Assembly: GCA_007134885.1 (NCBI GenBank) | Contig: SLJX01000033.1 | Coordinates: 1 to 46,087, forward strand | From: Halanaerobiaceae bacterium | Lineage (GTDB): Bacteria > Bacillota > Halanaerobiia > Halanaerobiales > Halarsenatibacteraceae | DNA: 46,087 bases | Reading direction: 5' to 3' | Shown: in pieces, positions 19,038 through 25,603 of the stretch | Position numbering within the stretch: position 1 is the first letter of the stretch | How the letters are laid out: every line of letters begins with the position of its first letter | Position numbers and translations under genes: made by a program | Notes under the pieces: generated by a model | The model's database searches: none | Told to the model about the DNA's origin: nothing | The model's input: the letters and a program-made list of their open reading frames with translations, nothing else

Positions 19038-19430
19038 ATGGCTGATGTTCAATATAGAGGTACAGGCAGGAGGAAAACCTCAACTGCCAGGGTGCGTCTG
19101 CTGCCGGGAAGTGGAAATGTAACTGTTAATGGCAGAGATGTAGCTGACTATTTCCACCGCAGATCCCAGATCAAAGATTTAAAGTCTCCCCTGGAAACCG
19201 TTAATCAGCTGGGCAGCCTGGATGTGGAAGTTAATGTCAGCGGCGGAGGACTGGCCGGTCAGGCCGGTGCAATTCGCCACGGCATTGCCAGAGCTCTGCT
19301 TGAGGTTGATGAGGAGTTCCGGACTTCATTGAAGAGAGCCGGCTATTTAACCCGGGATCCCCGGATGAAAGAGAGGAAAAAGCCCGGCCTCAAGAAAGCC
19401 CGTAAGGCCCCTCAATTCTCAAAAAGATAA
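19038..19430 (+). CDS. rpsI: Small ribosomal subunit protein uS9
   Basis: 130 aa. [20 protein letters not shown] at the start, [19 protein letters not shown] in the middle and the basic C-terminal tail ending [11 protein letters not shown], whose last residues reach P-site tRNA. It is the last gene of the 19-kb ribosomal run and is followed by a clear intrinsic terminator. Confidence 0.98.
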
Positions 19431-19467: not shown

Positions 19468-19495
19468 AAAACCCTTCTCCTCGGAGAGGGGTTTT
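19468..19495 (+). terminator. Intrinsic terminator after rpsI
   Basis: The arms AAAACCCTTCTC and GAGAGGGGTTTT pair around a CTCG loop, with one T-G pair; the 3' A/T part of the stem supplies the T-tract. It closes the ribosomal protein and ECF cluster. Confidence 0.85.
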
Positions 19496-19613: not shown

Positions 19614-20438
19614 ATGTTAAGGGGAGGCCTTTTTCCTCATCCACCGATTATTATTCCTGAAATTGGCGGTGAGCGGAGACGAAAAGCAACCGACACCATT
19701 TCGGCCTGCAAAAAGCTGGCCGGGATGTTTGTTGAACAGATGCCCGATCTAGTGATAGCTGTCGGTCCCCACGGCCCCACGGATCACAGCAGGATAACCA
19801 TCAGTGCAGCCCGGGATCACCGGGGTGATCTGGGATACTTCGGGGCTCCTGATATTAACTTTACCCTGGAGGGCTGCCCGGAAATGGCAGATAATATTGA
19901 GCAGGAGTTTGCTTCGGCAGACTGGCAGTTAAGACAGGTTAACCGCCAGAAGAGTGAAGCAGAACTGGACCACGGAATCATGGTACCTCTTTATTTTCTG
20001 GAGGAAGCGGGACTGGAGAGAGTTCCCTGGTTGATTTTAAATATGACCTTCTGGGAACCGCAAAAGTTATATAGTTTTGGAGAAAAACTGGCTAATTATG
20101 TTAAGGAAGAAACTGAGTTTGCCGATCCTGTATTTCTGGTCAGCGGCGATTTATCCCACCGCACCGAACCGGGAGCGCCAGGAGGTTATTCCCCGGCAGG
20201 AGAGGAATTTGACCGCCGTCTGATGGGCCTGCTGGCTGAAAATGACCTGGAAGCTGTTCTCAAGCTGGATCAACAATTAATCAAGGATGCGGGAGAATGC
20301 GGTTACCGTCCGCTGCTGATTGGGCTGGGTTTTTCTGAAAAGCTGGCAGGGAAAGGGGAACTTGATATTGAAGTCTTATCCTATGAGGCGCCATTTGGAG
20401 TTGGTTATGGCGTGGCCCAATTTAGAGATGGGAGGTAA
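19614..20438 (+). CDS. AmmeMemoRadiSam system, LigB/Memo-like protein
   Basis: 274 aa. Class III extradiol dioxygenase (LigB) fold, judged from the N-terminal LFPHPPIIIPEIGG (H9), VIAVGPHGPTDHSRI (H53, H58), a central LDHGIMVPLYFL and SGDLSHR. In this fold the histidines would hold a metal; activity of this subgroup is not established to my knowledge. In related Bacillota this domain is often fused to AMMECR1; here it is a separate gene two bases before it, with the radical SAM partner next. Shine-Dalgarno AAGGAGG precedes ATG 19614. Function as a set is unknown; modification of an RNA or protein has been a reasonable guess from the radical SAM partner. Confidence 0.88.
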   Translation: MLRGGLFPHPPIIIPEIGGERRRKATDTISACKKLAGMFVEQMPDLVIAVGPHGPTDHSRITISAARDHRGDLGYFGAPDINFTLEGCPEMADNIEQEFASADWQLRQVNRQKSEAELDHGIMVPLYFLEEAGLERVPWLILNMTFWEPQKLYSFGEKLANYVKEETEFADPVFLVSGDLSHRTEPGAPGGYSPAGEEFDRRLMGLLAENDLEAVLKLDQQLIKDAGECGYRPLLIGLGFSEKLAGKGELDIEVLSYEAPFGVGYGVAQFRDGR

Positions 20439-20440
20439 AT

Positions 20441-20983
20441 ATGCTGGACTTACCCTATAATCCCGCCCGGCTGGCCCGGGAGGTTCTGGAGGAATATTTT
20501 CTCAGGGGCGAGGTTGATTATCAGAAGCTGGAATTTGCCGGTGATATCCAGGCCGGCAGCTTTGTTTCCCTGAAAAATAGAGCTGATAACTCTTTAAGGG
20601 GCTGCATTGGTACAATTGAACCCTGCCAGGATACTCTGGCCCGGGAGGTGGCCTGCAATGCCCTTTCGGCAGCCCTGAAGGATCCCCGCTTTCCGGCTCT
20701 GACGGCTCAGGAACTGGAAGAGATTTATATTACCGTAGATGTTCTGGGCAGCCAGGAGAAGGTTGAAGACCGAGGAAAACTCAATCCCGAAGAGTTTGGT
20801 GTGGTGGTGGCTAAAGGAAATTGTCGGGGGGTACTACTGCCGGACCTGGAAGGGGTAGATTCTGGGGAGAGACAGCTGAGCATTGCAGCTCAAAAGGCTG
20901 GACTTTCTGCCAGGGAGATAGAACAGGGAGATTTCACCGTCTATCGGTTTCCGGTCAGCCGTTTTGAGGAGGAGCAGCAATGA
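20441..20983 (+). CDS. AmmeMemoRadiSam system protein A (AMMECR1 domain)
   Basis: 180 aa, a complete AMMECR1 domain. Hallmark motif LRGCIG at residues 52-57, followed by GTIEPCQDTL; later DPRFPALTAQELEEIYITVD and VVAKGNCRGVLLPDLEGVD, the expected C-terminal lobe. The family is conserved from bacteria to humans, with no proven catalytic activity known to me. It starts two bases after the LigB-like gene and overlaps the radical SAM gene by 4 bases, so these three are very probably one translational unit. Confidence 0.93.
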   Translation: MLDLPYNPARLAREVLEEYFLRGEVDYQKLEFAGDIQAGSFVSLKNRADNSLRGCIGTIEPCQDTLAREVACNALSAALKDPRFPALTAQELEEIYITVDVLGSQEKVEDRGKLNPEEFGVVVAKGNCRGVLLPDLEGVDSGERQLSIAAQKAGLSAREIEQGDFTVYRFPVSRFEEEQQ

Positions 20984-21987
20984 CCTTAAAAAAGAGCAAT
21001 CACAGCGGGTATCCAGCTCGTTATTATAGAAAAGAAGAGGACCTGGTTGTTTGTGAACTCTGTCCTCACTGCTGTCAGCTGACTGCAGGCGAGAGAGGCA
21101 GATGCCGGGCCAGAGAAAACCGGGAGGGGGAGCTCTTCTCCTTAAATTACGGAGAGGTAAGTTCACTGTCCCTGGATCCCATCGAGAAGAAGCCCCTCTA
21201 TCATTTTTTCCCCGGCCGGGAAACTCTCTCCCTGGGCACCTGGGGTTGCAATCTGGCCTGTGATTTCTGCCAGAACTGGAGAATAAGTCAGGGAGACCCT
21301 CCGGTGAGAAAATATAAACCCCGGGAAATAATAAAACTATGTCAGGAAAAGCCCCAGGAGATAATCTCCTTCACCTATTCCGAGCCACTGATCTGGTATG
21401 AATTTGTCCGGGAAACGGCCGAACTGGCCCGGGAAGAGAACTATAAAACTGTGCTGGTGAGCAATGGTTTTGTCAACCGGGAGCCGCTGGAGGAGCTGAT
21501 TCCCTTTATCTCGGCCTGTAATATAGATCTGAAATCCTTTCAGGATGATTTTTATCAAAGATTATGTCAGGGTCGGGTCGGACCGGTTAAACAGAATTTA
21601 AAGCGGCTTGCTGCTTCCGGGGTTCATCTGGAGGTAACCAGTTTGCTGGTTACCGGTGAAAACAGCTCACCGGAGGATGTTGGAGAACTGGCCGGTTTTC
21701 TGGCTGACTTAAATTCCGAAATACCCCTGCATCTTTCCCGGTATCATCCAGCCTATAAATCTGACAGGCCGGCCACCAACCTCCAGGTAATGGAGGAGGC
21801 CTATGAGACAGCCCGGTCCTATCTGGATTATGTATATCTGGGAAATGTGGCCGGGCCAGGCGGAAGGGATACCAGCTGTCCGGAGTGCGGCAGTCTGGTA
21901 ATCAAAAGAAGCGGTTTTTCCGGCAGTAGCAGGCTGCAGCAGGGCAGCTGCCCGGAATGCGGTCGAGAAATAGCCGGTAAATTTTAA
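20980..21987 (+). CDS. amrS: AmmeMemoRadiSam system radical SAM enzyme
   Basis: 335 aa. A cysteine-rich N-terminus (C25, C28, C31, C32, C42) comes first, then the radical SAM cluster motif C90-x3-C94-x2-C97 in WGCNLACDFCQNW. Further rSAM-typical parts are YSEPLIWYEF and VSNGFVNREPLEEL. The C-terminus has two CPEC pairs (zinc-ribbon-like) around residues 300-330. It resembles pyruvate formate-lyase activating enzymes, but the neighbours show that it belongs to the AmmeMemoRadiSam family. Substrate unknown. Its 3' end lies 23 bases before glmM. The symbol follows database usage and is only a family label. Confidence 0.92.
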   Translation: MTLKKSNHSGYPARYYRKEEDLVVCELCPHCCQLTAGERGRCRARENREGELFSLNYGEVSSLSLDPIEKKPLYHFFPGRETLSLGTWGCNLACDFCQNWRISQGDPPVRKYKPREIIKLCQEKPQEIISFTYSEPLIWYEFVRETAELAREENYKTVLVSNGFVNREPLEELIPFISACNIDLKSFQDDFYQRLCQGRVGPVKQNLKRLAASGVHLEVTSLLVTGENSSPEDVGELAGFLADLNSEIPLHLSRYHPAYKSDRPATNLQVMEEAYETARSYLDYVYLGNVAGPGGRDTSCPECGSLVIKRSGFSGSSRLQQGSCPECGREIAGKF

Positions 21988-22010: not shown

Positions 22011-23357
22011 TTGGGAGATTTATTTGGAACTGATGGTGTGAGAGGTGTTGCCAATCAGGATCTAACTCCGGAGCTGGCCTTTAAACTGGGCCGGGCAGGC
22101 GCTTCGGTGCTTGAGGAAGAAGCCAGGTTCAGCTGCGGGGAAAAGGAAAAGGTTTTTATTGGCCGGGACACCAGAATTTCCGGCGATATGCTGGCTGCAG
22201 CTCTGGCAGCCGGGGTCAACTCGCTGGGAATTGATACGGTAGATCTGGAGGTTGTGCCAACTCCGACGGTCTCCTATCTGACCAGAAGCCGGCCGGTGAT
22301 TGGAGGTATAATGGTTTCTGCCTCCCATAATCCCATCCAGGATAACGGTATTAAGTTTTTTGGCTCCGGAGGGATGAAAATATCGGAGGAGATGGAAGAA
22401 GAAATTGAAACCAGGCTGGAGGCTGAGCTGGTCAGACCCACCCATGAAAAGGTGGGCCGCCAGCAGGAGGGCAGGTACTTAATTGAGTTTTATTTGAACA
22501 GTCTGCTGACCTCCTATACCGGTGATATTTCCGGTCTTTCTGTAGTACTGGACTGTTGCCATGGCGCCGCCCATAAGCTGGGTCCCCAAATCCTGAAAAG
22601 AGCCGGTTTGGAGAAGATTAAAGTTATCAATCATTCCGGCCAGGGTGAGCTGATCAATGTAGACTGTGGCTCTACCAATACCAGGGTGCTGAGGGAGACT
22701 GTGCTGGTCGAGGGAGCTGATCTGGGAATTGCTCTGGATGGTGACGCTGATCGGGTTATTCTGATTGATGAACAGGGCAGAGAGATTGACGGTGATTATA
22801 TCATGTATATCTGCGGCAGCCATCTCTCCCGCCGGGGGAGACTAAAGGGCAACCGGGTGGTGGCTACCCGCTACAGCAATCTAGGTCTGGCTGAAGCTCT
22901 GGAGAAGTCCGGAGTTGAGGTTATTTATGCTGACAATGGAGATAAATATGTGCTGGCCAGGATTCAGGAGCTAAATTTAAGTCTGGGAGGTGAGAAATCA
23001 GGACATATAATCTTTAAGGAACATAATGTTTCAGGGGATGGAATGCTGACAGCCCTTAAGATTATGGAGGTGATGGCCGAGACCGGCAAACCTCTGAGTA
23101 AGCTGGCAGAGGGCCTTAAGGAATGGCCCCAGCTTTTAAAAAATGTCAGGGTGGAAAATAAGGAGATGCTGGAAGGTAATTCCCGAATTTCTAGGATTGT
23201 TGCTGAAGGTGAAAGAGAACTTCAGGAGGGCAGGATTTTTGTCAGAGCTTCGGGCACCGAGCCGGTTATCAGGCTGATGCTGGAGGGTCGTGATAAAGCT
23301 CTGCTGGAAAAATGGGGAGAGCGAATTGCCGGGGTTGTTGGCGAGGAGCTTAACTAA
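22011..23357 (+). CDS. glmM: Phosphoglucosamine mutase
   Basis: 448 aa from TTG 22011. It converts glucosamine-6-phosphate to glucosamine-1-phosphate for peptidoglycan precursors. Active-site SASHNP at 103-108 (S105 is the expected phosphoserine), metal-binding DGDADR, sugar-specificity GEKSGHI and phosphate-binding RASGTEPVIRLM near the end. In many Bacillota glmM follows cdaA-cdaR; here the AmmeMemoRadiSam genes stand in that position. GAGGGGG before the start supports TTG. Confidence 0.97.
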   Translation: MGDLFGTDGVRGVANQDLTPELAFKLGRAGASVLEEEARFSCGEKEKVFIGRDTRISGDMLAAALAAGVNSLGIDTVDLEVVPTPTVSYLTRSRPVIGGIMVSASHNPIQDNGIKFFGSGGMKISEEMEEEIETRLEAELVRPTHEKVGRQQEGRYLIEFYLNSLLTSYTGDISGLSVVLDCCHGAAHKLGPQILKRAGLEKIKVINHSGQGELINVDCGSTNTRVLRETVLVEGADLGIALDGDADRVILIDEQGREIDGDYIMYICGSHLSRRGRLKGNRVVATRYSNLGLAEALEKSGVEVIYADNGDKYVLARIQELNLSLGGEKSGHIIFKEHNVSGDGMLTALKIMEVMAETGKPLSKLAEGLKEWPQLLKNVRVENKEMLEGNSRISRIVAEGERELQEGRIFVRASGTEPVIRLMLEGRDKALLEKWGERIAGVVGEELN

Positions 23358-23560: not shown

Positions 23561-23569
23561 TCGACAGTA

Positions 23570-23732
23570 TGATAGCGCCTGATCCTGTCAGGCACTTCTT
23601 GGGCAGGATGACGAGGAAGGGAGTTAATCGAATAATTCGGCGGATGCTCCCGGGCCTGAAGACCGGTCCTGAAACTGGCTGTTAAAACCTGGAGGTAACT
23701 GCAGGGACAGAGCGGCCGGGAGGTCTTCCAGA
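23570..23732 (+). ncRNA. glmS_ribozyme: glmS ribozyme (self-cleaving glucosamine-6-phosphate riboswitch)
   Basis: The conserved core blocks are present in order: A|GCGCC at 23574-23579 with cleavage expected between A23574 and G23575; the P1 arms GATCCTGTC and GGGCAGGATG; GACGAGG (23610-23616), GGGAG with ATCGAA, then TTCGGCGGATGCTCCCGG at 23636-23653; and the AAACCTGGAGGTAACTGCAGG block of P4 around 23685. A long-range P3 stem pairs CTGAAGACC (23656-23664) with GGTCTTCCAG (23722-23731). High glucosamine-6-phosphate makes the RNA cut itself, lowering GlmS. It lies directly upstream of glmS. Confidence 0.95.
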
Positions 23733-23782: not shown

Positions 23783-25603
23783 ATGTGTGGAATAATTGGT
23801 TATGCCGGCAAAGCAGGGGCAGAGAAATTTCTGCTTCAGGGTTTAAAGAAACTGGAATATAGAGGTTATGATTCAGCTGGAATAGCAGTGCTGGATGAGG
23901 ATGAGATGCAGGTAGTTAAATGCCAGGGCACTCTGGATGAACTGGAAAATAGACTCCGGCAAAAAAGTCTTCGGGGTTATCTGGGAATAGGTCATACCCG
24001 CTGGGCCACCCATGGAGTTCCTTCCGATGACAATTCCCATCCCCACCAGGACTGCCAGGGACGCTTTGCCCTGGTCCATAACGGTATTATTGAAAATTAT
24101 CAGTCTCTCAAGGCCGAACTACAGGCAGCAGGTCACAGCTTCTGCTCTGAGACCGACACCGAGGTGCTGGTCCATCTGCTGGAGGAAGTTCATCAGGGTG
24201 ATATGATAGCGGCTCTGAGAGAACTGCAGGAAAAGCTGGCAGGATCCTATGCTCTGGCTGTGGTGGATAACAGGGAGCCGGAAAAGATTTATGCCCTCCG
24301 CCAGGCCAGTCCGCTGGTGATCGGACTGGGAGAGCAGGAGAATTATCTGGCTTCAGATATGCCGGCCCTGCTTAATGCTACCAGAAAGTTTCATATCCTG
24401 GAGGATGGCGAACTGGCAGTACTAAAGGAGGATGAAATCAGCATCTTTTCAGCCGCTGGTGAGGAAATCGAAGCTGATATTTTCCAGGCGGACTGGGATG
24501 CTGAAATGGTTAAAAAGCAGGGTTATGAACATTTTATGTTGAAGGAAATATATGAACAACCCACAGTGGTCCGCCGACTGCTGGCAGCTTATCTGGACCG
24601 GGACCAGGTTAAACTTCCTGAAGTAGCTGAGATCTGGGGTGATGAAATTGACCGGGTGCTGATTACCGCCTGCGGAACAGCCTATTATTCCGGACTGGTG
24701 GGGCGGCATATTCTGGAAGAGCTGGCCAATCTTCCGGTAGAGGTGGAAATTTCCTCCGAACTGAGATATAAAAAGAACTTTCTTGATGAAAATTCTTTGA
24801 CGCTGGTGATGAGTCAGTCTGGAGAGACCGCCGATACCCTGGCAGCCCTCAAGCTTGCCAGAAGCAGGGGCAGCCGGGTTCTGGCACTGACCAATACCAT
24901 TGGGAGCAGTATAGCGCGAGAGGCCGATGCCGTGGTTGATCTTAAAGCCGGACCGGAAATAGCAGTTGCTTCCACCAAGGCCTATTCAGCCATGCTGACA
25001 GCCCTATATCTTACCGGATTAAAACTGGGCGAGCTGCGGGCTACTCTGCCTGAGAGAGAACTTCTGACCTACCGCCGGGAACTTTTGAAGCTGCCGGAAA
25101 AAATCACGGCAGCTTTAAACCGGGTGGAGGACAGCTGCCGGGAGGCTGCTGATTATTTGAAAAATCACAGCAGCATGTTTTTTATCGGACGTAACCTGGA
25201 CTACAGCCTAGCTCTGGAAGGTGCTTTAAAATTAAAGGAGATATCCTATCTTCATGCTGAAGCCTATCCCGCCGGTGAGCTAAAGCATGGCACCCTGGCC
25301 CTGGTAGAGGAGGGTGTGCCGGTGATAGCAATCTTTACCCGCAGAGGTCTGGTCAGTAAAACTCTCAGCAATGTCAAGGAAGTAAAGGCCCGGGGCGGCA
25401 GGGTTATTGCCATTGCCACTGCCGGGACTATTGAAGATAAAGAAGAATTTGATCAATTTATTGAACTGCCTGCCTGCAATGAACTCTGGGCTGGTGTTTT
25501 AACAGTGCTGCCACTGCAGCTGCTGGCCTATCATACAGCCCATAATTTGAATTGCTCCATCGATAAACCCCGTAATCTGGCCAAAAGTGTGACGGTGGAG
25601 TAA
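23783..25603 (+). CDS. glmS: Glutamine-fructose-6-phosphate aminotransferase (isomerizing)
   Basis: 606 aa. It makes glucosamine-6-phosphate from fructose-6-phosphate and glutamine, the first step of amino-sugar synthesis. Begins MCGIIGYAGK, where C2 becomes the N-terminal nucleophile of the glutaminase domain (about 1-225), with HTRWATHG and HNGIIENY. Two SIS domains follow (ITACGTAYYSGLVGR, then SQSGETADTLAAL), and the C-terminus ends PRNLAKSVTVE. Shine-Dalgarno GGAGG before ATG 23783. Controlled by the ribozyme in its leader. acpS starts two bases after its stop. Confidence 0.98.
   Translation: MCGIIGYAGKAGAEKFLLQGLKKLEYRGYDSAGIAVLDEDEMQVVKCQGTLDELENRLRQKSLRGYLGIGHTRWATHGVPSDDNSHPHQDCQGRFALVHNGIIENYQSLKAELQAAGHSFCSETDTEVLVHLLEEVHQGDMIAALRELQEKLAGSYALAVVDNREPEKIYALRQASPLVIGLGEQENYLASDMPALLNATRKFHILEDGELAVLKEDEISIFSAAGEEIEADIFQADWDAEMVKKQGYEHFMLKEIYEQPTVVRRLLAAYLDRDQVKLPEVAEIWGDEIDRVLITACGTAYYSGLVGRHILEELANLPVEVEISSELRYKKNFLDENSLTLVMSQSGETADTLAALKLARSRGSRVLALTNTIGSSIAREADAVVDLKAGPEIAVASTKAYSAMLTALYLTGLKLGELRATLPERELLTYRRELLKLPEKITAALNRVEDSCREAADYLKNHSSMFFIGRNLDYSLALEGALKLKEISYLHAEAYPAGELKHGTLALVEEGVPVIAIFTRRGLVSKTLSNVKEVKARGGRVIAIATAGTIEDKEEFDQFIELPACNELWAGVLTVLPLQLLAYHTAHNLNCSIDKPRNLAKSVTVE

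Follow-up and report, generated by a model that had tools for sequence, protein, structure and literature searches.

AMMECR1 and MEMO1 are common to people and anaerobes and, since the reaction of these proteins is unexplained, any reliable functional clue would count. Human MEMO1 coordinates iron through H49, H81 and C244, with the cysteine occupying the place of a glutamate in dioxygenases, and according to passages of the same report its authors could not detect dioxygenase activity (PMC11081632). In a table from an extract of another study, PF01871, the AMMECR1 family, comes first among the markers of anaerobes, with values of 3.38 and 50.66 in columns that we take as aerobe and anaerobe (PMC13386939), and excerpts of an archaeal survey place AMMECR1 among widespread uncharacterised proteins (PMC6393860). 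Radical SAM enzymes of a type related to those of Memo-AMMECR1 systems are also described, in sections of a further paper, from peptide-processing conflict systems (PMC7159879). Two reports describe inhibition of the c-di-AMP cyclase by GlmM, in B. subtilis and in S. aureus (PMC8573169, PMC6368335). Our literature searches returned no paper about the function of the AmmeMemoRadiSam system, judged by title and the start of the abstract, and no paper combining glmM, cdaA, cdaR, operon and radical SAM.

The window, by which we mean the whole stretch of 46,087 nucleotides that was analysed, carries genes for a LigB/Memo-superfamily protein, AMMECR1 and a radical SAM enzyme (the trio) directly upstream of glmM and glmS (Table 1). 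A preliminary description had given the coordinates of the trio, a gap of 2 bases between the first two genes, a 4-base overlap between the AMMECR1 and radical SAM genes, and 23 bases from the radical SAM stop to the start of glmM, all of which proved exact to the base. The terminator that it had placed ahead of the trio is a strong hairpin; none of 200 shuffles was as good as its stem, and the hairpin is retained after rpsI in all four aligned sequences. The names S9 (rpsI) and L13 (rplM) are presumptive assignments from the sequence. Scores for glmM (TIGR01455, 504.5 bits; cut-off 447.55) and for the glmS ribozyme, which the preliminary description had left out (RF00234, 102.5 bits; gathering cut-off 37), are well above threshold. 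In a sequence scan, promoter-like sites were near the shuffle level (15 found; shuffle mean 10.2, sd 3.9), and we set aside a promoter or terminator dividing the radical SAM gene from glmM, the scan result being not above shuffles; at this level a promoter of glmM's own may go unseen. At the window locus cdaA-cdaR is absent upstream of glmM, and the sole diadenylate-cyclase domain in the genome lies on another contig, in a 370-aa frame that is DisA-like by size. Measured against two close relatives, dN/dS is 0.11-0.28 for the three trio genes and 0.10-0.16 for glmM, taken for comparison; all three trio genes are under purifying selection, like glmM.

Table 1. Features of the trio locus, in window coordinates
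Feature	Position	Strand	Basis or remark
rpsI (S9), preceded by rplM; other conserved anchor of the neighbourhood	19038..19430	+	ORF
Intrinsic terminator hairpin, 3' of rpsI and 5' of the trio	19468..19495	+	-20.6 kcal/mol, z -4.2
LigB/Memo-superfamily protein, 274 aa	19614..20438	+	ORF and profile match; conserved H9, H53, H120, H182, C229
AMMECR1 (AmmeMemoRadiSam system protein A), 180 aa	20441..20983	+	Profile matches; LRGCxG motif
AmmeMemoRadiSam radical SAM enzyme, 335 aa	20980..21987	+	TIGR04337 match
glmM, phosphoglucosamine mutase, TTG start	22011..23357	+	TIGR01455 match
glmS ribozyme (RF00234), between glmM and glmS	23563..23730	+	Rfam
glmS, glutamine--fructose-6-phosphate transaminase	23783..25603	+	Curated model match

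The trio had been described as a single AmmeMemoRadiSam unit, which agrees with matches above the cut-offs of TIGR04335 and TIGR04337 beside a Memo/LigB gene. AMMECR1 reaches 136.7 bits with its Pfam model (cut-off 25) and 120.6 with TIGR04335 (cut-off 99), and its motif L52-R53-G54-C55 with G57 is invariant in 97/97 sequences. All residue counts left out L114 and L115, probably duplicates of two other records in the set; these two loci, from Halanaerobiaceae MAGs, are the nearest named records and the ground for calling the order Halanaerobiales. The radical SAM protein scores 293.9 bits with TIGR04337 (cut-off 220), and its CxxxCxxC motif at C90/C94/C97 is invariant in 116/116 radical SAM sequences, a set that includes paralogues. 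Extra cysteines are found at C25, C28, C32 and C42 and at C300, C303, C324 and C327. Its nearest other radical SAM families are glycyl-radical activases (YjjW, 67.3 bits; PFL activase, 51.1).

A second radical SAM gene above the TIGR04337 cut-off was seen in G000:C149 (L052, 3515-6830). It adjoins the gene of a 788-aa protein that has a spermine-synthase domain and, by eye, many hydrophobic stretches, and in L077, L079 and L081, of the same family, a radical SAM gene likewise precedes one for a protein of 772-799 aa. Given this neighbour, and with no AMMECR1 or Memo gene labelled beside it, the paralogue was rejected as part of a trio system.

The Memo-like protein matches LigB at 127.6 bits (cut-off 26.3) and Pfam Memo at 31.7 (cut-off 27). 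It gave no match up to E 1 to TIGR04336, the model for system component B; the N-terminal part of one fused relative is narrowly above that cut-off (26.9; cut-off 26). Because the window's protein falls short of it, we assign protein A and the radical SAM enzyme to the system and place B in the Memo/LigB superfamily only. Dioxygenase equivalog scores are far under cut-off (TIGR02298, 25.7 against 315.95). The structural model (pLDDT 84.5) matches TK2203 with a Z-score of 28.1, an aminophenol dioxygenase with 26.3, LigAB with 24.8 and MEMO1 with 19.0; class III extradiol dioxygenases span Z 23-28 overall, and the modelled fold is nearer to them than to MEMO1. H53, D179, H182 and C229 are present in 94/94 sequences and H9 in 93/94, H120 is all but invariant, and E228, adjoining C229, is kept in 86/94 with Q in 6. 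From H182 to C229 there are 47 residues, which we take to be also the spacing from H195 to E242 in LigB. It is on invariance and spacing that C229 is read as a metal ligand and, judged from the alignment, it is likely the counterpart of the iron-ligand cysteine of MEMO1. E228 is an alternative candidate for the ligand, because a profile alignment sets it on the GEGG glutamate of a dioxygenase.

AMMECR1 is present in 190 of the 249 genomes of our phylum sample and in all 38 genomes of the order Halanaerobiales. That Memo and AMMECR1 are fused elsewhere and split here, as previously suggested, is evident from the lengths of the AMMECR1 open frames: throughout the 38 genomes of Halanaerobiales they are short (171-198 aa), and in the phylum sample short frames are rare, those below 220 aa numbering seven among the 150 of 190 positive genomes listed, three of the seven being in this order. 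The model of a fused relative has a pLDDT of 85.6 and a pTM of 0.80. In a tree of the three trio genes, 26 loci of the order form one clade together with an outside split locus, L169, which is assigned to the same phylum only; L067, from the window's family, clusters with other families. A tree of AMMECR1 alone gave no resolution on a single origin of the split in the order.

Loss of the glmM neighbourhood among relatives had been set beforehand as one outcome that would speak against a tie of the trio to glmM. We found the same order and strand in 32 of the 38 genomes of the order, with glmM 1.0-6.3 kb downstream of AMMECR1, inside a limit of 6.4 kb, and in the other six the two genes are on different contigs; the trio stands beside glmM more often than chance. 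AMMECR1 and the radical SAM gene adjoin in 37/38. The sole genome with these two apart, on different contigs, is G021, where AMMECR1 is still near cdaA and glmM. Gene maps give the general order rplM-rpsI, Memo, AMMECR1, radical SAM, then, where present, a reverse gene of ~245 aa and cdaA-cdaR, and finally glmM-glmS; rpsI is inside the mapped stretch in some of the order's loci only.

We compared intergenic regions in the 22 loci of relatives that hold the trio and glmM on one stretch. Outside the window's family, an opposite-strand Rce1-like gene separates the trio from glmM in 16/16 loci, seven of which, all in families f4 and f7, also have cdaA-cdaR between. Within the family nothing intervenes in the window or in any of its six readable relatives, whose gaps are 9-149 bases. 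The reverse gene matches the Rce1-like (CAAX protease) family only marginally, with E-values of 9e-5 to 0.02 for four proteins, one of them above cut-off. As far as gene order can tell, the usual state in the order would be two transcription units flanking the reverse gene, so the simplest account of the operon-like junction in the window is that it was derived locally.

Several further loci are worth recording. The ~245-aa opposite-strand gene between the trio and glmM or cdaA was seen at L056:3770-4498 and in 15 more loci of the order, and such a gene is also near a fused Memo-AMMECR1 gene in three loci of the same class. In G030, from the window's family, the reverse gene adjoins the radical SAM gene, and a different contig carries glmM. 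G031 has a 6,755-base stretch that takes in all three trio genes and the first part of glmM and is present twice at 100% identity, ~98 kb apart (L068 and L243); the second glmM copy is truncated, and the repeat is either a recent duplication or an assembly artefact.

Across the phylum, glmM was found in 235/249 genomes against 190/249 for AMMECR1, and glmM does not need the trio. Pair distances were counted, among the matches listed, from 150 of the 190 AMMECR1 genomes, 150 glmM genomes and 150 cdaA genomes plus G014 and G023, and an absent pair in these counts can reflect a contig break. On this basis AMMECR1 and glmM share a contig in 43/107 genomes; they are under 100 kb apart in 30, with glmM downstream on the same strand in 29 of the 30. 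The distances among the matches listed form a continuum from below 3 to above 100 kb, and nine pairs exceed 110 kb. We also read 60 hand-picked phylum loci, about one per family except for three from f76, most of them spanning only ~7 kb on each side. A radical SAM gene is immediately adjacent in 50/60. The commonest neighbour is a cwlD-like wall amidase (35/60), and after it come ArgC-like reductases together with further arg genes (17), rpsI (15) and cdaA (12). The figure for cdaA is too high because G061, G080, G132, G138, G245 and G269 were chosen once proximity to glmM was suspected, and the genome pair-distance count is the fairer one.

In that count cdaA is at most 10 kb from AMMECR1 in 17/110 genomes and 10/50 families, always downstream on the same strand, among the matches listed. 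The statement of the preliminary description that glmM is usually preceded by cdaA holds for the phylum, the two being within 10 kb in 105/114 genomes among the matches listed. Loci near cdaA fall into several separate clades of the trio tree. In one genus (G188, G215 and G239) the trio is beside cdaA, and glmM lies at a distance of 1.8-2.0 Mb; L217, the single locus of this genus that was read, has Memo-AMMECR1, radical SAM, cdaA and cdaR together. When 20 loci picked as having no known trio nearby were read upstream of cdaA, the trio was in none of the stretches, and eight carried instead two or three related genes in reverse orientation. Within the order cdaA is above cut-off in 19/38 genomes against 38/38 for AMMECR1, and a dependence of the trio on cdaA by presence and absence, which we had considered, is not seen.

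The proposal that the position beside glmM marks a functional tie to amino-sugar synthesis is not supported by these data. The abutment belongs to the window's family only, with the reverse gene between elsewhere; cwlD, arg genes and rpsI are commoner neighbours in the phylum; one genus keeps glmM megabases from the trio; and glmM is more widespread than AMMECR1. The position next to glmM is real, old and regional, and it is weak as a functional clue. The opposite extreme, a chance adjacency in one lineage, might be read from direct abutment being confined to the window's family, but the conservation in 32/38 genomes of the order, the other six having the genes on separate contigs, and the regional linkage of trio and glmM across the phylum led us to reject it as highly improbable. 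A closer competitor is that the trio works with a CdaA-GlmM module, modifying either an intermediate (of wall, isoprenoid or nucleotide type) or one of the proteins CdaA and GlmM, with gene order kept by selection. The constant orientation of the trio-cdaA pairs in 10/50 families, the genus that keeps trio and cdaA together without glmM, the frequency of the cwlD-like amidase and the inhibition of the cyclase by GlmM all speak for it. Presence is nevertheless uncoupled between AMMECR1 and cdaA in the order, an opposite-strand gene divides the units, and arg genes are more frequent neighbours than cdaA (17/60 against 12/60), so that we hold such a module to be unlikely. A 2019 review of the superfamily by Burroughs reportedly proposed links to nucleotide-base and isoprenoid modification. 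A more specific version has the trio use radical chemistry to modify a pathway linked to the cell envelope or to c-di-AMP; the trio would form one module with cdaA-cdaR that stayed together in some anaerobic Bacillota even once glmM had moved, and Halanaerobiales would have retained the trio next to glmM after the loss of cdaA. This version seems to us quite doubtful. A link of the trio to c-di-AMP or wall synthesis is weakly supported.

A different kind of alternative concerns the chemistry: the first protein might be an ordinary class III extradiol dioxygenase, cleaving aromatic rings with oxygen and aided by the other two. Its LigB score, its closest structures (TK2203 and extradiol or aminophenol dioxygenases) and the retention of H9, H53, H120 and H182 would suit such an enzyme. 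The invariant cysteine in the region of the third ligand, the standing of AMMECR1 as an anaerobe marker in the extract noted above, the radical SAM gene immediately next in 50/60 loci and the TIGR02298 score all argue against it, and we think it improbable. Radical SAM enzymes are an oxygen-sensitive type. The conservation of Memo and AMMECR1, the MEMO1 iron site, the activase-like radical SAM protein and the anaerobe marker lead us to favour an oxygen-independent radical modification by a three-protein unit.

Our preferred reading is thus a split-gene AmmeMemoRadiSam locus in an inherited housekeeping neighbourhood, together with three-protein radical chemistry, and as a whole we consider it probable. 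Its positional part, that closeness to glmM is inherited gene order and not a functional clue, we hold with good confidence; the chemical part, an anaerobic three-protein radical enzyme unit, is a tentative proposal. The old neighbourhood would have run from rplM-rpsI through the trio, and in places cdaA-cdaR, to glmM-glmS. Normally in Halanaerobiales the trio ends against the Rce1-like gene on the opposite strand, beyond which a separate unit begins with glmM or cdaA. Since the reverse gene and cdaA-cdaR are missing in the window's family, the trio there leads directly into glmM, and a shared transcript is probable. The phylum pattern is what is expected of an inherited housekeeping region with lineage-specific losses. 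Counter-evidence to drift comes from cdaA lying near AMMECR1 in 10/50 families, in one orientation and in several clades, among the matches listed; pure gene-order drift might have dispersed the trio-cdaA pairs further.

As for the enzyme itself, the Memo-like and AMMECR1 proteins, one polypeptide in most relatives, would form a core whose metal site may consist of two histidines and one cysteine (H9, H53 and C229). The radical SAM enzyme would contribute 5'-deoxyadenosyl-radical chemistry, directed at whichever substrate or protein this core handles. Since anaerobes are the typical carriers of the system, its LigB-like fold probably works without oxygen. What joins the trio to glmM would be position and not catalysis. 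For the wider family, the neighbourhood survey marks glmM as a weak clue, singles out cdaA and cwlD as neighbours that merit tests, and points to oxygen-independent chemistry. Halanaerobiales offer a convenient test system, with a core of two proteins, each of which can be purified individually.

Set against the known systems, the window's proteins share superfamilies with human MEMO1 and AMMECR1, and possibly the H-H-C metal site, although MEMO1 is a weaker fold match to the Memo-like protein than the dioxygenases are (Z 19.0 against 28.1). With class III extradiol dioxygenases the Memo-like protein has the LigB fold in common and keeps H9 and H53, while the third position is E228 or C229. 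The cdaA-cdaR-glmM operon is continued by glmM and glmS as in the window, which differs in having no cdaA-cdaR. The fused Memo-AMMECR1 proteins of other Bacillota have an identical domain order, and the same radical SAM gene usually comes after them, whereas all 38 genomes of Halanaerobiales have two genes. The closest described relative is the AmmeMemoRadiSam system (TIGR04335, TIGR04336, TIGR04337): the window has its protein A and radical SAM enzyme above the cut-offs, adjoining a Memo/LigB gene, and departs from it in a Memo-like protein that is LigB-type, lacks a TIGR04336 match and is encoded apart from AMMECR1.
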